This document shows positions 53,363-64,000 of a stretch of 64,000 nt of DNA, in pieces. The notes under the pieces are model-generated. The model was not told the origin of the DNA. It did not search any database and worked only from the letters and a program-made list of their open reading frames with translations. Both the position numbers and the translations under genes were made by a program. Position 1 is the first letter of the stretch, and each line of letters starts with the position of its first letter. The DNA is from Croceicoccus sp. Ery15 (GTDB lineage Bacteria; Pseudomonadota; Alphaproteobacteria; Sphingomonadales; Sphingomonadaceae): assembly GCF_020985305.1 (NCBI RefSeq), contig NZ_CP087588.1:1550001-1614000 (forward strand), read 5' to 3'.

Positions 53363-53938
53363 ATGCGGATCGCCATCATCGACGAAAGCGCCTCGCGCGC
53401 ATCGATTATCGAAGAAGGCCTGTCGCAACTTCCCGATTGCCAGATTTCGGTGATCACCAGTCGTCACGGCCTGCTGGCCCGCATGGCCGAGATCGATCCC
53501 GAAATCGTGCTGATGGATCTGGGCAATCCGTCGCGCGACGTGCTGGAAGAATATTTCGCGGTCAGCCGCGCGCTGTCGCGCCCCATCGCCATGTTCGTCG
53601 ACCAGTCGGACGACGATGCCATCGCGGCCAGCATCGATGCGGGCGTATCGGCCTATGTCGTCGACGGGCTTGCCGCCAATCGCATCCGCCCGCTGATCGA
53701 AATGGCGGTGCGCCGGTTCAACGCCTTTGCCCGCCTGCAATCCGATCTGGACGAGGCGAACAGCAAGCTGGCCGAACGCGCCAATATCGACAAGGCGAAA
53801 CGCATATTGATGGACACGCGCGGCATTACCGAGCCCGAGGCCTATGCCGAATTGCGACGAAAGGCGATGTCGTCATCCAAGCGGATCGCCGATATTGCCG
53901 AGGCGCTTGTCACCGCCCATGATCTGATGCGCGAATGA
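53363..53938 (+). CDS. nasT: NasT-type response regulator with ANTAR RNA-binding domain
   Basis: A 191-residue two-domain protein: a receiver-like domain (about 1-120, MRIAIIDESASRASIIEEGL, with the Asp in VLMDLG) and a C-terminal ANTAR domain (about 130-185, KLAERANIDKAKRILMDTRGITEPEAYAELRRKAM). NasT binds hexaloop hairpins in leader RNAs and prevents transcription termination; NasS holds it inactive without nitrate or nitrite. I chose ATG 53363 over the frame start at 53297. It is followed by nasS and two leaders with matching hairpins further downstream. Confidence 0.93.
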   Translation: MRIAIIDESASRASIIEEGLSQLPDCQISVITSRHGLLARMAEIDPEIVLMDLGNPSRDVLEEYFAVSRALSRPIAMFVDQSDDDAIAASIDAGVSAYVVDGLAANRIRPLIEMAVRRFNAFARLQSDLDEANSKLAERANIDKAKRILMDTRGITEPEAYAELRRKAMSSSKRIADIAEALVTAHDLMRE

Positions 53939-53972: not shown

Positions 53973-55187
53973 GTGACCGAGGAACTGAATGTCGGCTTTT
54001 TGCCGCTGGTCGATGCGTGCCTGCCGATCATCGCGCAAGAGGCGGGTTTCGCCGAAGAGGAAGGGCTGAACCTGCGCTTTGTGCGCGATGTCAGCTGGGC
54101 GACGGTGCTGGACCGGCTGTTATACGGGCATAGCGATGTCGCCCATATGCTGGCCCCGCTGGCGATTGCGACCACACTGGGACGGGGCCGCCCCGCCCAG
54201 CCGCTGGCCGCGCCTTTCGTGCTGGGCCTCAACGGCAATGCGGTCACATTATCGAACGAGCTGGCCGATATTCTGATACCGGACGAATCCGATAAATTAA
54301 GCGATCCCAAGGTCTTGGGCGCGCGACTGCGTGAGGAAGCGCTGCGGCGGAGCGCGGCGGGCAGGCCGATCCGCTTTGGCGTGGTGCATCGCTATTCCAG
54401 CCATAATTACATGCTGCGTTACTGGCTGGCGGGCTGCGGCATCCGGCCCGATTCCGATGTAGAAATCGTGACCGTCGCCCCACCCTTCACCGCCGATGCG
54501 CTGGCAGGCGGAGAGATCGACGGAACATGCGTGGGCGAGCCGTGGAATTCGGTCGCGGTGGACCGCGGGGTAGGCCGCATCGTACTGGCGACGGCGCAAA
54601 TCTGGCGCCGCGGTGTCGAAAAAGTGCTCGCCATGCGCGAAAACGTGCTGGAAGAGCGGCGCGACGCGGTCGAACGGCTGATCCGGGCGATGCGGTGTGC
54701 GGGCGAACATTTCACCGATCCCGCCCATTGGGAGGCCAGCGCCGAATTGCTGGCGCGGCCCGAATATCTGGCATCCGATCCCAAGCTGATCCTTGCCGCC
54801 ATTTCCGACCGTCTGGTGCTGCGTCAGGATGGCGCGCCGGTGCATTATTCGGACTTCATGTTCCAGTACCGCGAGGCCGCGAACTTCCCGTGGATCAGCC
54901 AGGCGCAATGGCTCTATACCCAGATGGTCCGCTGGGACGGCATGGCGTTCGACGCGGGCGATGCGGCAAAGGCCGCGCGCGTGTTCCGGCCCGATATCTA
55001 TCGCAGCGCCTTGCGCGGCGCCGATTCGCCGCTTCCCGGCGCAAGCAGCAAGGTCGAAGGCGCAGTCAGGGGCACCATCGGCGCGGGGACGGAGCAAGGC
55101 CGGTTGGTCATGGAACCCGACGCATTTTTCGATGGCAAAACCTTTGATCCAGAGAAACTTGAGGAATATCTGGCCAGCCAGAACTGA
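53973..55187 (+). CDS. nasS: NasS-type cytoplasmic nitrate/nitrite sensor
   Basis: A 404-residue protein of the NrtA/CmpA/NasS substrate-binding family. It starts directly with the fold (LNVGFLPLVDACLPIIAQEAGFAEEEGLNLRFVRD) and has no signal peptide or lipobox, so it is the cytoplasmic NasS sensor rather than a transporter subunit. In NasS-NasT pairs the ligand-free protein sequesters NasT, and nitrate or nitrite releases it. The start is GTG 53973. It lies 34 nt after nasT. Family motifs such as HMLAPLAIATTLGRG and GEPWNSVA are present. Confidence 0.92.
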   Translation: MTEELNVGFLPLVDACLPIIAQEAGFAEEEGLNLRFVRDVSWATVLDRLLYGHSDVAHMLAPLAIATTLGRGRPAQPLAAPFVLGLNGNAVTLSNELADILIPDESDKLSDPKVLGARLREEALRRSAAGRPIRFGVVHRYSSHNYMLRYWLAGCGIRPDSDVEIVTVAPPFTADALAGGEIDGTCVGEPWNSVAVDRGVGRIVLATAQIWRRGVEKVLAMRENVLEERRDAVERLIRAMRCAGEHFTDPAHWEASAELLARPEYLASDPKLILAAISDRLVLRQDGAPVHYSDFMFQYREAANFPWISQAQWLYTQMVRWDGMAFDAGDAAKAARVFRPDIYRSALRGADSPLPGASSKVEGAVRGTIGAGTEQGRLVMEPDAFFDGKTFDPEKLEEYLASQN

Positions 55188-55252
55188 ACGAAATTTCATG
55201 GTGCAGTGCAAAAACCGCTTTACGCATCTGCCGCGAATCGGTTAGGACAAAG

Positions 55253-55375
55253 GCACAGCGCACGGATCGCCGCCCACGGACGGGTGACCCAGCGAACCGC
55301 GCTGCACTTACGAAATTGCGTGGCAACGTCGCCGCCCGAACCTTCCCTGTGGGGATGTTTCGAGGCGGCTTTTTT
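55253..55375 (+). promoter_or_regulatory. NasT (ANTAR) leader RNA upstream of nrtA
   Basis: A leader in the 214-nt gap after nasS. A 5-bp hairpin CGCCC/GGGTG (55271-55275 with 55282-55286) has the hexaloop ACGGAC (55276-55281), with A at position 1 and G at position 4 as in ANTAR targets. A second ACGGAT hexamer is at 55262-55267. CAGCGC (55256-55261) pairs with GCGCTG (55299-55304) as an outer stem. The terminator follows at 55331-55375. NasT binding is expected to favour antitermination when nitrate or nitrite is present. The transcription start was not identified. Confidence 0.75.
55331..55375 (+). terminator. attenuator terminator in the nrtA leader
   Basis: GCCGCC (55331-55336) pairs with GGCGGC (55364-55369), followed by six T (55370-55375); the inner part also pairs (CGAA with TTCG, TCCC with GGGA). 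It precedes the nrtA start by about 30 nt, so without antitermination the operon would be turned off. Confidence 0.88.
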
Positions 55376-55401
55376 GCGTTGTCCGACGACAGAGGGATCG
55401 A

Positions 55402-56841
55402 TTGGCGATGTTCGGACGTGATGGAAAGATTTCGGGTTTCAACCGGCGCTCTGTGATGGCGGCGATGCTGGCATCGGTCGCGCTGGCGGGGTGCGGCGGC
55501 GGCGGCGATAATGGCGCCAGCGACGCGGTCGTGGCCGCATCGGTCGACGGGCAGCCGGAAAAGCCGAACCTGAAGCTGGGCTTCATCAAGCTGACCGACA
55601 TGGCCCCGCTCGCCATTGCGAAGGAAAAGGGCTTCTTTGCCGAAGAAGGCCTGAACGTAGAGCTTGAACCGCAGGCGAACTGGAAGGTCCTGCTCGACGG
55701 GGTGATCGGCGGGCAGCTCGACGGCGCGCATATGCTGGCGGGCCAGCCGATTGCCGCGACCATCGGCTATGGCACCAAGGCCGATCTGATCGCGCCGATC
55801 TCGCTCGACCTCAACGGCAATGCGATCACCCTGTCGAACAAGACATGGGCCGCGATCAAGCCGACGCTTCCCGTTGAAGGCGGCAAGATCAAACACCCGA
55901 TCAGCGCATCGGCGCTGAAGCCGGTGGTCGACAGCTATGCCGCGCAGGGCAAGCCGTTCAACATGGGCATGGTCTTCCCCGTTTCCACCCATAACTACGA
56001 ACTGCGTTACTGGCTGGCGGCAGGCGGGCTGAACCCGGGTTATTACACCGACGGCGATGTGTCGGGCACGGTCGATGCCGATGTGAAACTGTCGGTCACC
56101 CCGCCCCCGCAAATGCCCGCCACGCTGGAAGCCGGCACCATCGAAGGATATTGCGTGGGCGAGCCGTGGAACCAGGCCGCTGTGCAAAAGGGCATTGGCG
56201 TTCCCGTCATCACCGACGACGAAATCTGGCACGACAATCCCGAAAAGGTCTTTTCGATCCGCAAGGATTTTGCCGAAAAATACCCCGCCACCACCGCCGC
56301 CATGCTGCGCGCCATCATCAAGGCGCAGCAATGGCTGGACGCCGACAATGGCGCGAACCGGGCCGAAGCGGTGAAGATCCTGTCGCAGCCCAATTACGTG
56401 GGTGCGGACGAAGAAGTCATTGCCGCATCGATGACGGGCAAGTTCACATTCGAAAAGGGCGACACCCGCGATGCCATGGGCTTCAACATCTTCTTCGATA
56501 AATATGCAGGCTATCCCTATTACTCGGATGCCGTCTGGTATCTGACGCAGATGCGCCGCTGGGGCCAGATCCCCGTCGATCATCCCGACGACTGGTATAT
56601 CGCACAGGCCAAGGCCGTGTACCGCCCCGACCTCTATCTTGCCGCTGCGCAAAAGCTGGTCGACGATGGCGTGATCCCCGCCGATGCCGTGCCCGAAACC
56701 GACGGTTTCAAGGGCGAACAGGCAGGCTTTATCGACAGCATCACTTTCGACGGTTCCGCGCCCAACGCCTATCTGGCGAAGTTTCCCATCGGCCTGAAGC
56801 AGGGCCAGCGGGTCACTGCATCGGGCGTGAGCAGCCAGTAA
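55402..56841 (+). CDS. nrtA: nitrate ABC transporter substrate-binding lipoprotein
   Basis: A 479-residue NrtA-type protein. The N-terminus has a lipoprotein/Tat-like signal ([19 protein letters not shown], lipobox LAGC), so the mature protein is anchored on the periplasmic side. The nitrate-binding fold has [43 protein letters not shown] and [24 protein letters not shown] 55402 (AGGG about 5 nt upstream) and ATG 55408 are both possible starts. It is downstream of the NasT leader and is the first gene of nrtABC. It resembles the adjacent NasS but is exported. Confidence 0.92.
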
Positions 56842-56884
56842 TTCCGATCAAGACACCGATATGACCGCGAACAGGAGCGATCAG

Positions 56885-57946
56885 ATGGCGACCGTATTTG
56901 CAGACGAGTTCGAATCCGTGAATGATGCGAACATGCCCGACCAGACGGCAAAAACGGCGCCGGTCGCGGCGCCCGCTGCCCCCAAGGCGCAGGCAGCGAA
57001 GCAATCCGCTTCGCCGCTGGCGGGGATCATGGCGAAATGGGGTCAGACCATCATCGCGCCGGTTCTGGGCATTCTGGCCTTTCTGGGCCTGTGGGCGGCG
57101 CTGGCCCCGCAAGTCGATACCTCTCTGGGCGCGCTGCCCGGCCCGGTCGAGGTGGCCGAACAAGGCGTCAGCCTGTTCGAGGAATGGCAAGCCGCCAAGG
57201 CGACCGAAGCGCAATTCTATGCCGATCAGGATGCCCGCAACGCGGAGGCCTTGTCAGCGGGCAATCCGGCGGCAGTGCGCAATTTCGAATATGCGGGGCC
57301 GCCCACATTTCTGGACCAGATCTTCACCTCGCTGAAAACCGTGGCGCTGGGCTTTGGCCTTGCCACGCTGGTCGCGGTGCCGCTGGGGCTGGCGGCGGGC
57401 CTGTCGCCCCTGTTCAACGCGGCGATCAACCCGCTGATCCAGATCATGAAGCCGGTCAGCCCGCTGGCATGGCTTCCCATCGTGACCATGGTGATTTCGG
57501 CCACCATCACCAGCGCCGATCCGCTGCTGGCCAAGGCCTTCGTCATCTCCGCGCTGGTGGTGATGCTCTGCTCGCTGTGGCCCACGCTGATCAATACCGC
57601 CGTGGGCACGGCCAGCATCGACAAGGATTTGCTGAACGTGGGCCGCGTGCTGAAACTGGGCTGGTTTGCAAAGCTCACCCGCCTCGTCCTGCCTGCCTCG
57701 CTGCCCTATATCTTCACCGGTATGCGCCTGTCGCTGGGCGTGGGCTGGATGGTGCTGATCGCGGCGGAAATGCTGGCGCAGAACCCCGGCCTTGGCAAAT
57801 TCGTGTGGGATGAATTCCAGAACGGATCGTCGCAATCGCTGGCCCGCATCATGTTCGCGGTGGTGGTGATCGGCTTCATCGGCTTTGGTCTCGACCGGAT
57901 CATGATGGCGCTGCAGTCGCTCGTTTCCAAGAACCACAAGATCTGA
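56885..57946 (+). CDS. nrtB: nitrate ABC transporter permease
   Basis: A 353-residue inner-membrane permease of the NrtB/SsuC/TauC type. The first 45 residues are hydrophilic and Ala/Pro-rich; then membrane segments and an inserted soluble stretch (about residues 95-145) precede the permease core with FLDQIFTSLKTVALGFGLATLVAVPLG and the EAA-loop-like VLPASLPYIFTGMRLSLGVGWMVLIAAEML. The start at ATG 56885 has AGGAG 7 nt upstream; an earlier ATG at 56861 is in frame. It is 43 nt after nrtA and 29 nt before nrtC. Confidence 0.92.
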   Translation: MATVFADEFESVNDANMPDQTAKTAPVAAPAAPKAQAAKQSASPLAGIMAKWGQTIIAPVLGILAFLGLWAALAPQVDTSLGALPGPVEVAEQGVSLFEEWQAAKATEAQFYADQDARNAEALSAGNPAAVRNFEYAGPPTFLDQIFTSLKTVALGFGLATLVAVPLGLAAGLSPLFNAAINPLIQIMKPVSPLAWLPIVTMVISATITSADPLLAKAFVISALVVMLCSLWPTLINTAVGTASIDKDLLNVGRVLKLGWFAKLTRLVLPASLPYIFTGMRLSLGVGWMVLIAAEMLAQNPGLGKFVWDEFQNGSSQSLARIMFAVVVIGFIGFGLDRIMMALQSLVSKNHKI

Positions 57947-57975
57947 GCCTGCGCGGCAAACAAGGAGGACAGGAC

Positions 57976-59655
57976 ATGCAGCCGATCCTTTCCCTGAAGA
58001 ACGTGACCAAGAGCTATACGGGTAAAACCGGCGGGACGACCGAGGTTCTGGGCGGCATCGACCTTGACGTCGAAGAGGGCGAGTTCATCGCGATCCTCGG
58101 CTTTTCGGGCGCGGGCAAGACCACGCTGATCAGCACGATCGCCGGTCTGGTAGAGGCCGATGGCGGCGAGGTTCTGCTGCGCGGCAAGCCCGTCGACGGT
58201 CCGGACCGCGACCGCGGGCTGGTGTTCCAGTCCTACTCTCTGTTTCCGTGGCTGAGTGTGCAGCAGAATGTCGCGCTGGCGGTGGATGCCGTGCACAAGG
58301 ACCGGTCCAAGGCCGAGCGCGCAGCCCTTGTGAAGCAAAAGGTCGAGCTGGTCGGTCTGGGCCATGCGATGGATCGCAAGCCCGCGCAATTGTCGGGGGG
58401 GATGCGCCAGCGCGTTTCGGTCGCCCGTGCGCTGGCGATGGAGCCGGAAATCCTGCTGCTGGACGAGCCCTTGTCGGCGCTCGATGCCCTGACCCGCGCG
58501 AAATTGCAGGACGAGATCGAGCGTATCCGCGAAGAGGAAAAGCGCACCATCATCCTCGTCACCAACGATGTGGACGAGGCCCTGCTTCTGGCCGATCGCG
58601 TGGCGGTCCTCTCTCCCGCGCCTGCCGCGACGATCGGCCGGATCTTCGACGTCGATATCGACCGCCCGCGCGAGCGCGAGGCGATGAACGACGACGATCA
58701 TTACAAGAGCCTGCGCGGCAAGATCGTCAACTATCTCGCCAATCTGAACGATGCGGCCTCCAGCGTGGGCGAAAGCGCGACCGAATTGCCCGGCGTGATC
58801 CCGCTCGACCTCGCCCCTCCCCCGCAGGCCTATCGCGAGGCGGGGCACAGCGCGGTCGAGAACCGCTATCTGGAATTCTTCAAGCTCGACAAGGTGTACC
58901 CGACGCCCAAAGGCCCGCTGACCGTGGTCGAGGATTTCAACCTGATCATGGACAAGGGCGAGTTCGTGTCGCTGATCGGCCATTCGGGCTGCGGCAAATC
59001 GACCGTGCTGACCATGGCGGCGGGGCTGAACGAGATTTCGAAGGGCGGCATCGTCCTCGACAATCGCGAGATCAGCGCGGCGGGGCCGGACAAGGCGGTG
59101 GTGTTTCAGGCCCCCAGCCTGATGCCATGGCTGACCGCACGGCAGAACGTGGCGCTGGGCGTGGAGCGGGTCTATCCGCATGCACAGCGCAGCGAACGCC
59201 GCGATATCGTCGATTATTACCTCGACCGAGTGGGACTGGCCGATGCCAGGGACAAGATGGCGGCGGAAATGTCGAATGGAATGCGCCAGCGTGTCGGCAT
59301 TGCGCGTGCCTTTGCGCTGTCCCCGCGCCTGCTGCTGCTCGACGAACCCTTCGGCATGCTCGACAGCCTGACCCGCTGGGACCTGCAGGACGTGCTGGTC
59401 GAAGTGTGGAACCGCACCAAAGTTACCGCGATCATGGTGACGCATGACGTGGACGAGGCGATCCTGCTGGCCGATCGCGTGGTGATGATGACCAACGGGC
59501 CACGCGCCACCATCGGCAAGGTGCTGAAGGTCGACCTGCCCCGCCCGCGCGACCGCAAGGCGCTGCTGGAGGATCCGAAATTCTACCAATACCGGCAAGA
59601 GGTGCTGCACTTCCTGGCCGAATATGATCACGGTCCCTCGGCCAAGGCGGCCTGA
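57976..59655 (+). CDS. nrtC: nitrate ABC transporter ATPase, two ATP-binding domains in one chain
   Basis: A 559-residue protein with two complete ABC ATPase domains. Domain 1 (about 1-250) has Walker A GFSGAGKTT, signature LSGGMRQRVSVARAL and Walker B EILLLDEPLSALD. Domain 2 (about 295-550) has GHSGCGKST, signature MSNGMRQRVGIARAF and LLLLDEPFGMLD. The signature of domain 2 is MSNGM rather than LSGGM. Cyanobacterial systems have separate NrtC (with a substrate-binding-like C-terminus) and NrtD; here the pair is fused and the regulatory domain absent. The ATG is 29 nt after nrtB with AGGAGG-like spacing. Confidence 0.93.
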   Translation: MQPILSLKNVTKSYTGKTGGTTEVLGGIDLDVEEGEFIAILGFSGAGKTTLISTIAGLVEADGGEVLLRGKPVDGPDRDRGLVFQSYSLFPWLSVQQNVALAVDAVHKDRSKAERAALVKQKVELVGLGHAMDRKPAQLSGGMRQRVSVARALAMEPEILLLDEPLSALDALTRAKLQDEIERIREEEKRTIILVTNDVDEALLLADRVAVLSPAPAATIGRIFDVDIDRPREREAMNDDDHYKSLRGKIVNYLANLNDAASSVGESATELPGVIPLDLAPPPQAYREAGHSAVENRYLEFFKLDKVYPTPKGPLTVVEDFNLIMDKGEFVSLIGHSGCGKSTVLTMAAGLNEISKGGIVLDNREISAAGPDKAVVFQAPSLMPWLTARQNVALGVERVYPHAQRSERRDIVDYYLDRVGLADARDKMAAEMSNGMRQRVGIARAFALSPRLLLLDEPFGMLDSLTRWDLQDVLVEVWNRTKVTAIMVTHDVDEAILLADRVVMMTNGPRATIGKVLKVDLPRPRDRKALLEDPKFYQYRQEVLHFLAEYDHGPSAKAA

Positions 59656-59765
59656 CCGTTTCGCCCGGACCGGAAACATCCGGCCGGGCCATTCCCCGCG
59701 TATGAGAGGATGACGCAGGGCGCGCGACACGGGCAAGGATGCCCGGCGCGGCAGTGATTTACACC

Positions 59766-59791
59766 GCAGGCCCGATGATGAGGGGGCCTGC
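59766..59791 (+). terminator. hairpin between nrtC and the porin gene
   Basis: GCAGGCCC (59766-59773) pairs with GGGCCTGC (59784-59791) over an 8-bp stem with a 10-nt loop, followed by CTTTCC. A weak T run makes it a probable partial terminator or processing site in the 226-nt gap before the porin. Confidence 0.5.
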
Positions 59792-59881
59792 CTTTCCAGC
59801 CACATTGGCGGGCGATGAAGCCTGCCCTTCGTTCACGGACACCGGACGCCCCCCATGCGTCCGGCAGGGAGGTCATGTTTG

Positions 59882-61111
59882 ATGAAGAAAATTGCTCTGC
59901 TTTGCGCCGCATCAGCCGCCGGCATCGCCGCGCCCGCATTTGCGCAGTCGTCCGGCCCGATCGAGATTGCCGATGCGACCACACTGGACGTGATCGTCGA
60001 TGGCACGCTGCGTTACGAAACCGTCAGCCAGCCTGACACCGCCGCCGACGATGCCGATGCGCTGACCTTTCGCATGCGCTCGGGCATCGAACTCGTCAGC
60101 CACGGGTTCTTTGCGCTGGGCGAAATGGAAGCGACAATGGCCATCGTCGACGATTACAACGATACTATTCCCGGCAATGGCATCGAACCCTATTCGGTGA
60201 TCCCCGACCCCGAGAATGTCGAGCTGAACCGCTTGCAGATCGGGTACAAGAGCAAGGCCGCCACCGTCACGCTGGGCCGCCAGCGGATCGCTCTCGACGA
60301 TCACCGTTTTGTCGGCAATGTCGGCTGGCGGCAAAATGAACAGACCTTCGATGCCGTGCGCGGACAGGGTAAAATCGGGCCGGTCGCGCTGGACGCCACC
60401 TATGCGATTTCGCAGCGCACGATTTTCGGCGTCGACAGCCCCAATGCGCATTTCGATGGCGACATGATCCTGCTGAATGGCGGGATCGATGTGAAATTCG
60501 CGCAGATCAAGGCATTCGCCTATCTGCTCGACTTTGACGACGAGAAGCCCCTGCGCCTCCCCTTCTCCAGCCAGAGCTATGGCCTGCGGGCGGCGGGCGC
60601 GATGCCGATCGGCGAGAGCTTCAAGATCAACTATGCCGCCAGCTATGCGCGTCAGAGCGATTATGGCGACAATCCGGTGTCCTATTCCGCCGATTTCATC
60701 AATGGCGAGGCGGGCTTTGCGATTGGCCCCGTCGGCCTGACCGGCGGCTATGAATTGCTGGGCAGCGACGATGGCATCGCCGCGTTCCAGACCCCGCTGG
60801 CGACGCTCCACAAGTTCAACGGCTTTGCCGATCTGTTCCTGACGACCCCCGCGAACGGTCTGCAGGACTATTACGGCACCGCCAGCATCAAGGCGGGCGA
60901 TGTGGCGATGATGAAGGGGCTGAACGCCAGCGTCACCTATCACCAGTTCGACAGCGATGTCGGCGGCATGGATTACGGCAGCGAGTGGGACGCGGCATTG
61001 GCGTTCAAGATAGGCAAGATCGGCCTGCTGGCGAAATACGCCAATTACAAGGCCGATGAATTCGGCACCGATACCGAGAAATTCTGGCTGCAGGCCAGCT
61101 TCGGCTTCTAG
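59882..61111 (+). CDS. alginate-export-type outer-membrane porin
   Basis: A 409-residue protein with signal peptide MKKIALLCAASAAGIAAPAFA and a beta-barrel (alternating strands; LQIGYKSKAATVTLGRQRIALDDHRFVGNVGWRQNEQTFDAV is typical of the alginate_exp/DcaP-like porins), ending in the terminal Phe ...WLQASFGF. It lies between nrtC and nasA on the same strand, so a channel for nitrate or another nitrogen source across the outer membrane is likely; that is inference from position. Starts at ATG 59882, after an RBS-like GGAGGTCATG region. Confidence 0.85.
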   Translation: MKKIALLCAASAAGIAAPAFAQSSGPIEIADATTLDVIVDGTLRYETVSQPDTAADDADALTFRMRSGIELVSHGFFALGEMEATMAIVDDYNDTIPGNGIEPYSVIPDPENVELNRLQIGYKSKAATVTLGRQRIALDDHRFVGNVGWRQNEQTFDAVRGQGKIGPVALDATYAISQRTIFGVDSPNAHFDGDMILLNGGIDVKFAQIKAFAYLLDFDDEKPLRLPFSSQSYGLRAAGAMPIGESFKINYAASYARQSDYGDNPVSYSADFINGEAGFAIGPVGLTGGYELLGSDDGIAAFQTPLATLHKFNGFADLFLTTPANGLQDYYGTASIKAGDVAMMKGLNASVTYHQFDSDVGGMDYGSEWDAALAFKIGKIGLLAKYANYKADEFGTDTEKFWLQASFGF

Positions 61112-61124
61112 GGGCAGGAGAGTC

Positions 61125-61154
61125 TTGCCGCAGTGCAATAAATCGCGTTATAAT
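61125..61154 (+). promoter_or_regulatory. sigma-70-type promoter for the nasA leader
   Basis: TTGCCG (61125-61130) and TATAAT (61149-61154) are separated by 18 nt. The -10 is a perfect consensus. The element GCAGTGCAA (61130-61138) lies within the spacer and also occurs at 55203-55211 upstream of nrtA. Predicted start near 61161, at the base of the leader stem. Confidence 0.65.
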
Positions 61155-61157
61155 GCA

Positions 61158-61283
61158 GGGTCGATGCCGGGGAATCCATGGATGGATTCCGCAATCGCAA
61201 GGCATCGACCCGATATCGCAACTCGCGTGGCAAAGGCGCCGCCCGAACCTGCCCCATGGGCGCAGGATCGTGGCGGCTTTTTT
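61158..61283 (+). promoter_or_regulatory. NasT (ANTAR) leader RNA upstream of nasA
   Basis: The nasA leader has a perfect 11-bp outer stem (GGGTCGATGCC 61158-61168 with GGCATCGACCC 61201-61211). Inside is a 7-bp hairpin GGAATCC/GGATTCC (61171-61177 with 61184-61190) with hexaloop ATGGAT (61178-61183): A1 and G4 as in ANTAR target loops. A terminator follows at 61238-61283. The sequence GCGTGGCAA (61225-61233) is shared with the nrtA leader (55318-55326). It should respond to the same NasT. Confidence 0.8.
61238..61283 (+). terminator. attenuator terminator in the nasA leader
   Basis: GCCGCC (61238-61243) pairs with GGCGGC (61272-61277), followed by six T (61278-61283); the inner part pairs CCTGC (61248-61252) with GCAGG (61262-61266). 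The 5' arm context CGCCGCCCGAACCT and the 3' end GGCGGCTTTTTTGCG are shared with the nrtA leader. Confidence 0.88.
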
Positions 61284-61314
61284 GCGTGCGCATGACGGAA
61301 AGGTTGGCGTGACA

Positions 61315-63879
61315 ATGTCCGAATTACGCACCACCTGCGCCTATTGCGGTGTCGGCTGCGGCATTGCCGCGCGCGTCACCGGCCCGCGCAGCATCGAGGT
61401 GAAGGGCGATCCCGACCACCCCGCCAACCATGGCCGCCTGTGTTCCAAGGGCACATGGCTGAGCGAAACCGTCGGGCTGGAGGGCCGGCTGCTGTACCCG
61501 ATGATCGGCGATGCGCGAGCCGATTGGGACGACGCGCTCGACCTTGTGGCGCAGAAGATGCGCGACACGATCGCCGAACATGGCCCCGACAGCGTGGCAT
61601 TCTACGTGTCGGGCCAGCTGCTGACAGAGGATTACTACGTCGCCAACAAGCTGCTGAAGGGCTTTGTCGGGACGGCGAATATCGACACCAATTCACGGCT
61701 GTGCATGGCAAGCGCCGTCGCCGCGCATAACCGCGCCTTTGGCGAGGATGTGGTGCCGTGCAGCTATACCGATCTTGAACAGGCCGATCTGGTCCTGTTG
61801 GTCGGTTCGAACACCGCATGGTGCCATCCCGTCATCTGGCAGCGGATCGAAAAGGCGCGGGAAGAGCGTGGCACAACGCTGGTGGTGATCGATCCGCGCC
61901 GCACCGAAACCGCCGAGCGGGCCGATCTGCACGTTGCGGTCGCGCCCGATGGCGATGTCGCGCTGTTCAATGCGCTGCTGGCCGCGATGCGGACACGCGG
62001 GGCGCTGGACGAAGCCTATATGGCCGAACATTGCGTCAGGCCCGACGGTTACATCGATGCGCTGAAAACGCAGGCACACGGAATCGACGACGCCTGTTTC
62101 GCGCAGCTTTGCGATCTGGTCGCCGCCCATCCGCGCATGGTGACCCTGTTCAGCCAGGGCGCGAACCAGTCCGTCTGCGGGACGGACAAGGGCAATGCGA
62201 TCATCAACCTGCATCTGGCGACGGGCCGGATCAATTGCGCGGGCAGCGGGCCGTTCAGCATGACGGGCCAGCCCAATGCGATGGGCGGGCGCGAAGTGGG
62301 CGGGCTTGCCAATATGCTGGCCTGCCATCTGGGGTTCGACGCGGACGAGCGGGCATCGGTCGCCGCGTTCTGGAACGCGCCGAACCTGTGCACCGGACCG
62401 GGCCAAAAGGCGGTGGAGATGTTTCGCGCCGTGCATGACGGCCGCATCAAATTCCTGTGGGTGATGGGCACCAATCCCGCCGTTTCCATGCCTGACGCGG
62501 GCTTTGTGCGCGAGGCGCTGTCACGGTGCGAAACGCTGGTCGTGTCCGAAGTGATGGCCGAAACCGATACCGCCCAATTCGCCCATATCCGCCTGCCCGC
62601 CATGGGCTGGGGCGAGAAGGACGGCACGGTTACCAATTCCGAACGCCGCATCAGCCGCCAGCGCCCGATCCTGCCCCCGCCGGGCGAAGCGCGGGCCGAT
62701 TGGCGGATCATAAGCGACGTTGCGCAGCGGCTGGGCCATGGCGCGGCCTTTGCCTTTGACCATCCGGCTGATATCTTTGCCGAATATGCGGCAATGACGC
62801 GGTTGAGCAAGAAGCACGGCAGGCTGCTCGACCTGACGCGTTGGGCCGGTTGCAGCCGCGCGGATTACGATGCGATGGAACCTTTCCGCTGGGGCGGCGA
62901 GCATCCGACGGCGGCGCGTTTTGCCCATGCCGATAGCAGGGCGCGCATCGTCGCGGTTCACACCCCCGCCCAGCCCCCCGTCGATCCCGATTTCCCTTTG
63001 CGGCTGAACACCGGACGCTATCGCGATCAGTGGCACACGATGACGCGCACGGGTCTAAGCCCGAAACTGTCGATCCACCGCCGCGAACCATTGGTCGAAA
63101 TCGCGCCGCAGGACGCGCAGGCATACGGGCTGACCGATGGCGGTTTCGCGCGGGTTTCGACGCCATGGGGTCACGCCGCCTTTCGCGTGGCGGTGACGGA
63201 CGGGCAGCGCAAGGGCGAGATTTTTGTGCCGATGCACTGGACCGACCTGACCGGCAGCGGGCGGACGGGCATGCTGGTTCATCCGGCGGTCGATCCGGTG
63301 TCGGGCCAGCCGGGGTTCAAGAATGTCGCGGCCCGCATCGCCCCCGTTACCCCCGACTGGCGCGGCTTTCTGGTCACGCGCGATGCCGTGCGCCCCGACA
63401 GCCTGTTCTGGGCTTTGGCCCGCGTCGAAGGGGGCTGGCTGACCGAGCTGGCGGGCATGGGCGCGGTCGATATCGATGCGCTGCTGCCCGGTGGCATCCG
63501 GTCGGAAGTTGCGGACAAGGCCCATGGCATGACCCGCATCGTCGTACGCGGCGATGATGGCGTTCTGGCTGCGGTGCTCTACCTCACCCGCAGCGGCACA
63601 CTGCCCGACCGCGACTGGATCGCGCGCCAGTTCGTAAGCGAGGATGCCAGCGCCATCGAATTGCTGGCGGGCCGCCCGGCGCAGCCCGCGCCCGATCGCG
63701 GGAAACTGGTGTGCCTGTGCCTTGACGTTGGCGAAACCACGGTGCGCGATGCCATCCGGCAGGGGTGCTGCAAGCTGAACGAGATTGCCGACAAGACCGG
63801 CGCGGGCAGCAATTGCGGATCGTGCCGCCCGCTGATCGCCCGCATGGTGGAGGAAGAAGCCGCAGCCAGCACCGCCTGA
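61315..63879 (+). CDS. nasA: assimilatory nitrate reductase catalytic subunit
   Basis: An 854-residue molybdopterin-dependent nitrate reductase. The N-terminal [4Fe-4S] site is Cys8, Cys11, Cys15 and Cys43 (CAYCGVGC then GRLCSKG). The Mo-bisMGD fold follows, with SGQLLTEDYYVANKLLKGFVGTANIDTNSRLCMASA (the Mo-ligand Cys region) and GTNPAVSMPDAGFVREALSRC. A C-terminal BFD-like [2Fe-2S] domain has Cys800, 802, 834 and 837 (CLC... CGSC). I chose ATG 61315; the frame is open upstream through the leader. Electron partners are not in the window. The reaction is nitrate to nitrite in the cytoplasm. Confidence 0.94.
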   Translation: MSELRTTCAYCGVGCGIAARVTGPRSIEVKGDPDHPANHGRLCSKGTWLSETVGLEGRLLYPMIGDARADWDDALDLVAQKMRDTIAEHGPDSVAFYVSGQLLTEDYYVANKLLKGFVGTANIDTNSRLCMASAVAAHNRAFGEDVVPCSYTDLEQADLVLLVGSNTAWCHPVIWQRIEKAREERGTTLVVIDPRRTETAERADLHVAVAPDGDVALFNALLAAMRTRGALDEAYMAEHCVRPDGYIDALKTQAHGIDDACFAQLCDLVAAHPRMVTLFSQGANQSVCGTDKGNAIINLHLATGRINCAGSGPFSMTGQPNAMGGREVGGLANMLACHLGFDADERASVAAFWNAPNLCTGPGQKAVEMFRAVHDGRIKFLWVMGTNPAVSMPDAGFVREALSRCETLVVSEVMAETDTAQFAHIRLPAMGWGEKDGTVTNSERRISRQRPILPPPGEARADWRIISDVAQRLGHGAAFAFDHPADIFAEYAAMTRLSKKHGRLLDLTRWAGCSRADYDAMEPFRWGGEHPTAARFAHADSRARIVAVHTPAQPPVDPDFPLRLNTGRYRDQWHTMTRTGLSPKLSIHRREPLVEIAPQDAQAYGLTDGGFARVSTPWGHAAFRVAVTDGQRKGEIFVPMHWTDLTGSGRTGMLVHPAVDPVSGQPGFKNVAARIAPVTPDWRGFLVTRDAVRPDSLFWALARVEGGWLTELAGMGAVDIDALLPGGIRSEVADKAHGMTRIVVRGDDGVLAAVLYLTRSGTLPDRDWIARQFVSEDASAIELLAGRPAQPAPDRGKLVCLCLDVGETTVRDAIRQGCCKLNEIADKTGAGSNCGSCRPLIARMVEEEAAASTA

Positions 63880-63928
63880 CCCGAAATCCCCGCAATTACC
63901 GGCGCTTGCGCCCGCCGTCCTTTTTGCA

Positions 63929-63957
63929 TTGCAGCAAAAGCCGAATCGCGGTAATAA
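63929..63957 (+). promoter_or_regulatory. candidate promoter after nasA
   Basis: TTGCAG (63929-63934) and TAATAA (63952-63957) with a 17-nt spacer form a sigma-70-like promoter 11 nt before an ATG at 63968. The predicted start would lie only a few bases before that ATG, which would make the transcript nearly leaderless. Confidence 0.4.
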
Positions 63958-63967
63958 TAATGCATTG

Positions 63968-64000
63968 ATGACAGGCGATCCGGTCATTCCGGGCCGTCCT
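63968..64000 (+). CDS. possible start of the next gene (11 codons in the window)
   Basis: ATG 63968 opens a frame (MTGDPVIPGRP) to the window edge, 88 nt after nasA. Too short to identify; another nitrogen-assimilation gene is likely only from position. Confidence 0.3.
   Translation, partial: MTGDPVIPGRP

Follow-up and report, generated by a model that had tools for sequence, protein, structure and literature searches.

Two hexaloop leaders in a Croceicoccus nitrate locus are very probably NasT-controlled transcription attenuators

NasS and NasT have been described as a sensor and regulator pair, with nitrate or nitrite reported to trigger NasT release in Paracoccus and NasT reported to bind the nasA leader with nitrate (PMC3795266). 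Replacement of hairpin I in the Paracoccus chromosome is reported to leave no growth on nitrate (PMC5424462). For leaders of EutV, NasR, AmiR and NasT, mutual exclusion of an antiterminator hairpin (P2) and the terminator is described in PMC3369931 and PMC7496416. Control of a nas leader by NasS–NasT, and of several leaders by one ANTAR protein, is already known. Here we analyse a stretch of 64,000 nucleotides from the marine bacterium Croceicoccus sp. Ery15 (NZ_CP087588.1, positions 1,550,001 to 1,614,000; hereafter the window), in which nrtA and nasA are each preceded by a leader (A and B, respectively) with two hexaloop hairpins, P1 and P2, and an intrinsic terminator. These leaders are very probably NasT-controlled transcription attenuators in which P2 and the terminator exclude one another. 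A description of NasT leaders in the Sphingomonadales was not found in the openly licensed PubMed Central literature.

Anatomy of the leaders and the predicted switch

An earlier, sequence-only reading of the window had reported an ANTAR-type hexaloop before each of nrtA and nasA, with A at position 1 and G at position 4 of the loop (A1 and G4), and a GC-rich terminator with six T in each leader. Direct reading and a script both recovered these hexaloops (P1), and both T-tracts were read from the sequence (Table 1). Overlooked in that reading was a second A1/G4 hexaloop hairpin, P2, which overlaps the 5' arm of the terminator in each leader. Both leaders share GCGTGGCAA (at 55318 and 61225), as had been noticed, because P2 lies on it. 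A1 and G4 are present in all four window hexaloops, each closed by a C:G pair, as preferred in selection by exponential enrichment (SELEX) on NasR (PMC7496416), and all stems have at least 3 bp (5 and 7 bp in P1, 5 bp in P2). The letters gccgc serve both as 3' arm of P2 and as 5' arm of the terminator, whose arms are gccgcc and ggcggc, with six T after them; P2 and the terminator are therefore mutually exclusive on paper.

In the predicted fold of each leader alone, the terminator forms and P2 does not. The window terminators pair the common arm with G-C or C-G where P2 has a U-G wobble, so the default should tilt towards termination. Leader B folds more stably than its shuffles (z = -5.30, 0 of 200 as stable). 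A simple terminator scan called the terminator in B and none in A, though the predicted fold of A contains the hairpin.

Both leaders lie downstream of nasT and nasS, as the sequence-only reading had it: an ANTAR response regulator, NasT, adjoins an NrtA-like NasS beside nitrate genes (Pfam, NCBIfam). With the Pfam model of the ANTAR domain, nasT is the sole match in the whole genome. The four EutV contact residues checked, as named in PMC8934654 (Arg142, Lys149, Tyr164 and Met172), align with R139, K146, Y161 and M169 of NasT in a by-eye reading of an alignment with a two-residue offset. NasS is presumed, by analogy, to be the nitrate- or nitrite-sensing partner.

From the described systems we infer the release of NasT by NasS, its binding to the leaders and the ensuing readthrough. 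Without nitrate or nitrite, NasS would hold NasT, the terminator would form and transcription would stop before nrtA or nasA. With either present, freed NasT would bind the P1 and P2 hexaloops as they emerge; with P2 (gtggc/gccgc) held, the terminator would lose its 5' arm and polymerase would read into the nrtABC and nasA–nirB genes. P1 would be raised on a further stem, such that its base, not its loop, comes close to P2.

Covariation, conservation and rival explanations

Twenty-three stretches of related genomes around NasT genes were fetched, and a search with the P2 sequence gathered 26 leaders, including the window's two. In their alignment P1 has A1 in 25 and G4 in all 26, and six of its seven pairs show changes on both sides, the stem differing in sequence with pairing kept. 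P1 and P2 cells are paired in 92.0% of cases vs 80.2% in shuffles, and their covariation score is 0.327 vs 0.112 (0 of 500 shuffles as high; maximum 0.115 in slid versions). RNAalifold, unprompted, predicted both P1 (5 pairs) and P2. The P2 stem is invariant in all 26 leaders, and its U-G wobble (GUGGC/GCCGC), kept in 26/26, recurs in 69 of 71 distinct leaders.

R1, a covariance model derived from the 26 leaders, identified the nrtA and nasA leaders in the whole genome with E values of 3e-19 and 6e-14, both being among its building sequences, and the next best match had an E value of 1.02. Searched against 80 named loci, R1 gave 72 matches, all with G4 and a C:G closing pair in P1 and 60 with A1, as aligned by fitting to the model. 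At least one match was found in 43 of the 46 loci L092–L137 and at least two in 29, some of these loci being short; the 34 loci L138–L171, mostly Sphingomonas and Sphingobium, had none. In the 23 fetched stretches, R1 gives 28 matches in 14. Closest to the window by NasT, among named relatives, are Croceicoccus sp. EAC98 (L092, 96%) and C. mobilis (L093, 91%).

The leaders also keep company with ANTAR genes. Among 298 genomes of the family, R1 leaders (E up to 0.01) occur in 42, with at least two in 34; the second match is weak in G009 and G087, and G070, G193, G241 and G279 have a weak match only. An ANTAR gene is present in 96 of the 298 genomes, and leader and ANTAR gene occur together in 41 (Fisher p = 2e-22, relatedness not corrected). 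The sole leader-bearing genome without an ANTAR gene, G302, is 78% complete.

Gene layout, determined by tblastn in 19 chosen loci, is complete for nasT, nasS, leader A, transporter, porin, leader B, nirB and nasA in 12. No porin match lies between the leaders in L142, L147 and L149; L154 is without porin and leader B, L131 is without leader B, and L094 and L123 are cut by the locus end. The transporter is either an MFS protein or nrtABC, and leader A is kept across the change. In Croceicoccus nasA precedes nirB and leader B lies 5' of nasA. One leader for uptake and one for reduction thus recur across genera. R1-type leaders were also seen on another contig or far from nasT (G026:C43:106324-106433; G134:C1:2115288-2115404 and 2118626-2118738).

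Hairpins with an ANNGNN loop and at least 5 bp are common in this DNA (28 in 54 kb of one strand), and one could regard the hexaloops as chance hairpins of GC-rich sequence in front of ordinary constitutive terminators after nasS and the porin gene. We consider this extremely unlikely, given the covariation, the conserved position and spacing, and the single match that a descriptor of P1, P2 and terminator gave when run on reversed sequence (2.8 million strand-bases). On the sense strand, hairpins of at least 5 bp with a C:G-closed [A/G]NNGNN loop number 355 in a 540-kb background; A leaders have 85 in 7.35 kb, with 20 on the antisense strand, and B leaders have 74 in 5.55 kb, with 22 antisense. 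The leader segments were anchored on P2 and hence include it by construction. It is also improbable, if less so, that hairpins and terminators are real and termination is set by a factor other than NasT, such as nitrogen status acting through a shared promoter box, with NasT acting on one leader only. A box near both promoters is indeed conserved (40 of 49 A leaders and 24 of 37 B leaders have the pattern GC-N2-3-(T/C)GCAAAA at 25-130 nt from P1 on its 5' side), and two Bradyrhizobium genes with NasT-type hairpins, narK and bjgb, are nonetheless reported to rise in a nasT mutant (PMC6759348). However, both leader classes keep the A1/G4 loops, the C:G closing pairs and the overlap of P2 with the terminator, and 41 of the 42 leader-bearing genomes also have an ANTAR gene.

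A further proposal, compatible with NasT-controlled attenuation, is that differing stems set different thresholds, with separate nitrate levels for turning on uptake and reduction. The stems of the window do differ as the sequence-only reading described them, P1 having 5 bp in A and 7 bp on an 11-bp stem (61158-61168/61201-61211) in B. The comparison of A with B covered 29 usable pairs of 36, uncorrected for multiple tests or relatedness; the other seven (L137, L098, L103, L122, L130, L126 and L042) were dropped by a filter on gap, P1 loop and terminator that one or both leaders did not pass, mostly through mis-picks. P1 showed no systematic difference in length (Wilcoxon p = 0.19) or energy (p = 0.72), which gives no support to differing stems as a conserved design. 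Neither the P1–P2 gap (p = 0.10) nor the T-tract (p = 0.29) differed significantly, and P2 energy was equal in 26 pairs. The terminators do differ modestly, that of A being more stable in 21 pairs (p = 0.004); in length, A exceeds B in 19 pairs, falls short of it in 5 and equals it in 5 (p = 0.0001). The stability difference is, however, reversed in the four Croceicoccus including the window (-23.4 in A vs -28.0 in B). Threshold setting by the stems is speculative and unlikely, though less so than the two preceding alternatives.

Several results weigh against NasT-controlled attenuation at both leaders. For P2, the search pattern that gathered the 26 leaders fixes the loop letters, as it does not for P1, and in P1 itself A1 is replaced by G in 12 of the 72 R1 matches. 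R1 finds no leader in 9 of the 23 related NasT loci, of which a looser descriptor matched in 4, nor in 55 of the 96 family genomes with an ANTAR gene. The whole fold of leader A is no better than its shuffles (z = -1.16, 24 of 200 as stable). Rfam gave no match at gathering score in the 64 kb and, with E allowed up to 10, still nothing in the leaders; whether Rfam 15 contains any ANTAR-target family could not be established, which makes this outcome uninformative rather than negative. Finally, P1 and P2 are 33 nt apart in A and 36 nt in B, and the gap in 76 of 86 script-measured leaders (median 33, range 29-40, as bounded by a filter requiring G4 and a gap of 24-42) exceeds the published spacing: an addition of 20 nt to the eutP linker is reported to abolish EutV action (PMC8934654), and a curated actinobacterial set of ANTAR RNAs accepted linkers of 2-25 nt (PMC8164766). 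The script that picked P1 found none in 5 of 91 leaders and clearly mis-picked it in several more.

Table 1 Features of the nitrate locus, with positions in the window
Feature	Position	Strand	Description
nasT	53363..53938	+	receiver-like domain and ANTAR RNA-binding domain; PF03861, 58.3 bits
nasS	53973..55187	+	NrtA-like protein; PF13379, 215 bits
Conserved promoter box	55199..55214	+	TGGTGCAGTGCAAAAA, upstream of nrtA leader
Putative promoter of leader A	55218..55247	+	CTTTAC ... GAATCGGTTAGGA; conserved in relatives
Extended P1, leader A	55256..55304	+	outer stem CAGCGC (55256-55261)/GCGCTG (55299-55304) carrying P1
P1 hexaloop hairpin, leader A	55271..55286	+	cgccc[ACGGAC]gggtg, 5 bp
P2 (antiterminator) hexaloop hairpin, leader A	55320..55335	+	gtggc[AACGTC]gccgc, 5 bp
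Intrinsic terminator, leader A	55331..55375	+	5' arm common with P2; six T at 55370-55375; sequence, predicted fold, script
nrtA	55408..56841	+	nitrate ABC transporter substrate-binding protein; PF13379
nrtB	56861-57946	+	best NCBIfam match TIGR01183, below its cut-off
nrtC	57976-59655	+	NCBIfam TIGR01184, above cut-off
First hexaloop hairpin, probable porin leader	59730..59745	+	cgggc[AAGGAT]gcccg
Second hexaloop hairpin, probable porin leader	59807..59826	+	ggcgggc[GATGAA]gcctgcc
Porin	59882..61111	+	alginate-export-like outer-membrane protein; PF13372, 32.3 bits on 59891-61108; no NCBIfam match
Sigma-70-like promoter of nasA leader	61125..61154	+	TTGCCG-18-TATAAT; overlaps box-like TGCCGCAGTGCAATAA (61126-61141)
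Extended P1, leader B	61158..61211	+	outer stem GGGTCGATGCC/GGCATCGACCC carrying P1
P1 hexaloop hairpin, leader B	61171..61190	+	ggaatcc[ATGGAT]ggattcc, 7 bp
P2 (antiterminator) hexaloop hairpin, leader B	61227..61242	+	gtggc[AAAGGC]gccgc, 5 bp
Intrinsic terminator, leader B	61238..61283	+	5' arm common with P2; six T at 61278-61283; fold, script, terminator scan
nasA	61315..63879	+	assimilatory nitrate reductase; molybdopterin oxidoreductase with BFD-like [2Fe-2S] domain (Pfam); NasC/NasA-type NCBIfam matches, each below its own cut-off
Start of probable nirB leader	63924..64000	+	palindrome TTGCATTGCAGCAA, CGAATCGCGGTAATAAT, 5' arm of outer stem
nirB leader hexaloop hairpins	L180:301-316 and L180:348-363	+	first base of the first hairpin (L180:301) is window 64000

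Hexaloop spacing, promoters and probable further leaders

Spacing is described as strict in the EutV structure report, with a dimer on one hexaloop at a time (PMC8934654); PMC3369931 gives linkers of 5-12 nt in EutV leaders and impairment at 14 nt, and calls the linker 'variable'. P1 of each window leader sits inside an outer stem, of 6 bp in A and 11 bp in B, and the base of this stem lies 15 nt from P2, so that the linker falls outside 2-25 nt when counted directly and at 15 nt when counted from the stem base. The outer stem was assessed by pairing the sequence 5' of P1 with its own linker vs the linkers of other leaders. Across 76 leaders, own-arm pairing averages -16.4 kcal/mol vs -12.7 kcal/mol when swapped; among 69 less redundant leaders its median rank is 0.147 (expected 0.5; Kolmogorov–Smirnov p = 4e-13), and the window ranks are 0.08 (A) and 0.03 (B). 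The stem is not universal, own-arm rank being in the best tenth for 24 of the 69, and several of the 26 aligned leaders have a best outer helix that does not form a clean stem below P1. We infer that the stem under P1 holds the base-to-base distance within the tolerated range. If it permits the distance, spacing would depend on geometry rather than on the number of nucleotides.

The hexaloop closest to P2 on its upstream side often lies 11-22 nt away in Sphingomonas-type leaders, and 37-54 nt away in others. Three tandem C:G-closed [A/G]NNGNN hexaloop hairpins were seen in Sphingomonas and Sphingobium NasT loci (L139–L171; for example L142:13554, L166:14678 and L164:11897). Of 28 A leaders 20, and of 22 B leaders 9, have both a proximal and a distal hexaloop 5' of P2; for these leaders, gathered by the P2 pattern, letter-shuffled upstream sequence gives such a pair at frequencies of 0.0000 and 0.0002.

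Initiation is probably regulated at both leaders too, given the conserved box. The box reads approximately TGCTGC(A/G)NTGCAAAAA; it precedes leaders of both types and, in most of the examples inspected, lies directly 5' of a -35-like CTTTAC (A) or CTTGCC (B). Leader B of the window lacks the GC-N2-3-(T/C)GCAAAA pattern, and the putative promoter of leader A was not called by a sigma-70 consensus scan. Among the sequences once listed as common parts of the two attenuators, GCGTGGCAA and the terminator arms belong to P2 and the terminator, whereas GCAGTGCAA is promoter-proximal and was rejected as an attenuator part: its copy in leader A belongs to the conserved box, and in window leader B its letters overlap the -35 element and are not kept in L032 or L034. 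Between nasA and nirB, the minus strand carries a perfect copy of the box (63921-63936). Similar palindromic boxes of the form TTGC-N6-GCAA stand at 55199-55214 (left half imperfect), 61126-61141 and 63924-63937, at three transcription units of the nitrate locus.

The sequence-only reading counted two attenuators under one sensor pair. The nrtA and nasA pair stands, with a sole ANTAR gene and recurrence in relatives; the count is likely too low, as two further leaders with hexaloop pairs probably precede the porin gene and nirB. The probable porin leader (59655-59881, from nrtC to the porin start) has two C:G-closed hexaloops, present in four Croceicoccus with changed stems and loops. In 45 stretches between transporter and porin, at least two such hairpins occur in 21, vs 0.2% in letter shuffles; these pairs are found in 21 of 29 stretches after nrtC and 0 of 16 after an MFS gene, the MFS stretches being mostly shorter. 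The hairpins are 36-61 nt apart in 17 of the 21, and these 17, selected for having them, contain 37 hairpins on the sense strand vs 4 antisense. Counting against a porin leader are the window gap of 61 nt, an R1 score of 4.2 bits and the absence of a U-tract. No conserved partner for a competing pairing of the second hairpin was found in the 17 stretches. In the window its 3' arm can pair near the Shine-Dalgarno sequence (p = 0.08) or with the linker (p = 0.04), as it does not in most of the other 16, and in the predicted fold CCUUUCC pairs with the Shine-Dalgarno GGGAGG around this hairpin.

nirB starts at 64180, 300 bases 3' of nasA and just outside the window. The nasA–nirB gap in four Croceicoccus contains a palindrome resembling the box, which is imperfect in L033, together with a -10-like CGAATCG..TA, a hairpin like P1 whose loop has G1 and G4, and an invariant gcagc[AATGGC]gctgc. 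When each of the four was letter-shuffled 2000 times, the hairpin pair never arose; three of the four are close relatives. R1 matches this leader weakly (10.1 bits, E = 0.0086 for 700 bases; elsewhere at most 8.1 bits in 11 kb outside the two leaders) and places P2 but not P1 on its hairpins. In C. mobilis (L033) the 3' arm of the P2-like hairpin can, by eye, pair downstream, followed by TTTTT; the other Croceicoccus nirB leaders have no U-tract after it. By DNA similarity among the 298 family genomes, the nirB leader has strong matches only to its own copy and G006; 28 other genomes match at E values of 1e-4 to 0.01 over short pieces that look like chance. Read by eye, the nirB leaders of four Croceicoccus (63880-64000, L180:301-480) have, after the two hexaloops, a pairing of CCGTGTTC with GAACACGG beside the Shine-Dalgarno sequence, and an upstream GGAACGCGG can pair with CCGTGTTCC instead.

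Tentatively, at somewhat below even odds, one NasT may serve at least four hexaloop leaders: two terminator-based (nrtA and nasA) and two without a U-tract here (porin and nirB) that may act on translation or RNA stability, with NasT reading hairpins more than 25 nt apart through an extra stem and three hexaloops in a row in Sphingomonas relatives. If hairpins this far apart and three in a row are indeed read, the published rule of two hexaloops at short fixed spacing would not be general for ANTAR proteins.

Comparison with described ANTAR systems

The locus resembles NasS–NasT of Paracoccus denitrificans as described in PMC3795266 and PMC5424462, with nasT–nasS upstream and two hairpins before the nas genes; there the two hairpins, HI at 137 bp and HII at 91 bp from nasA, are also far apart. 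Whereas one leader is described for P. denitrificans, here transport and reduction each have a leader, and porin and nirB probably do. As in the NasT regulon of Bradyrhizobium diazoefficiens (PMC6759348), one NasT faces several NasT-type hairpin leaders (nirA, coxS, narK and bjgb in that report, which also cites earlier work on nos and nap leader hairpins). Those belong to separate operons with mixed responses; here a single compact cluster, with a gene order found again in other genera, has its leaders placed by module. The split between uptake and reduction leaders, kept across ABC or MFS transporter, would fit a regulon built with one RNA device per module.

With the Klebsiella oxytoca NasR/nasF leader (PMC7496416) the locus shares nitrate-controlled ANTAR antitermination, as predicted here, and C:G-closed hexaloops with A1 and G4; the sensor there is the one-component NasR, in contrast to the two-component NasS–NasT. 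The EutV RNAs of Enterococcus faecalis (PMC3369931, PMC8934654) likewise have tandem A1/G4 hexaloops with P2 overlapping an intrinsic terminator, and in the eut locus one ANTAR protein acts on four leaders, as one NasT probably does on several here. EutV linkers are short, whereas those of the window span 33 and 36 nt with a stem under P1, and this stretched distance is what is unusual against the known systems. Natural leaders with such gaps, and with up to three hexaloops in relatives, bear on the question of how one ANTAR dimer uses two hexaloops.

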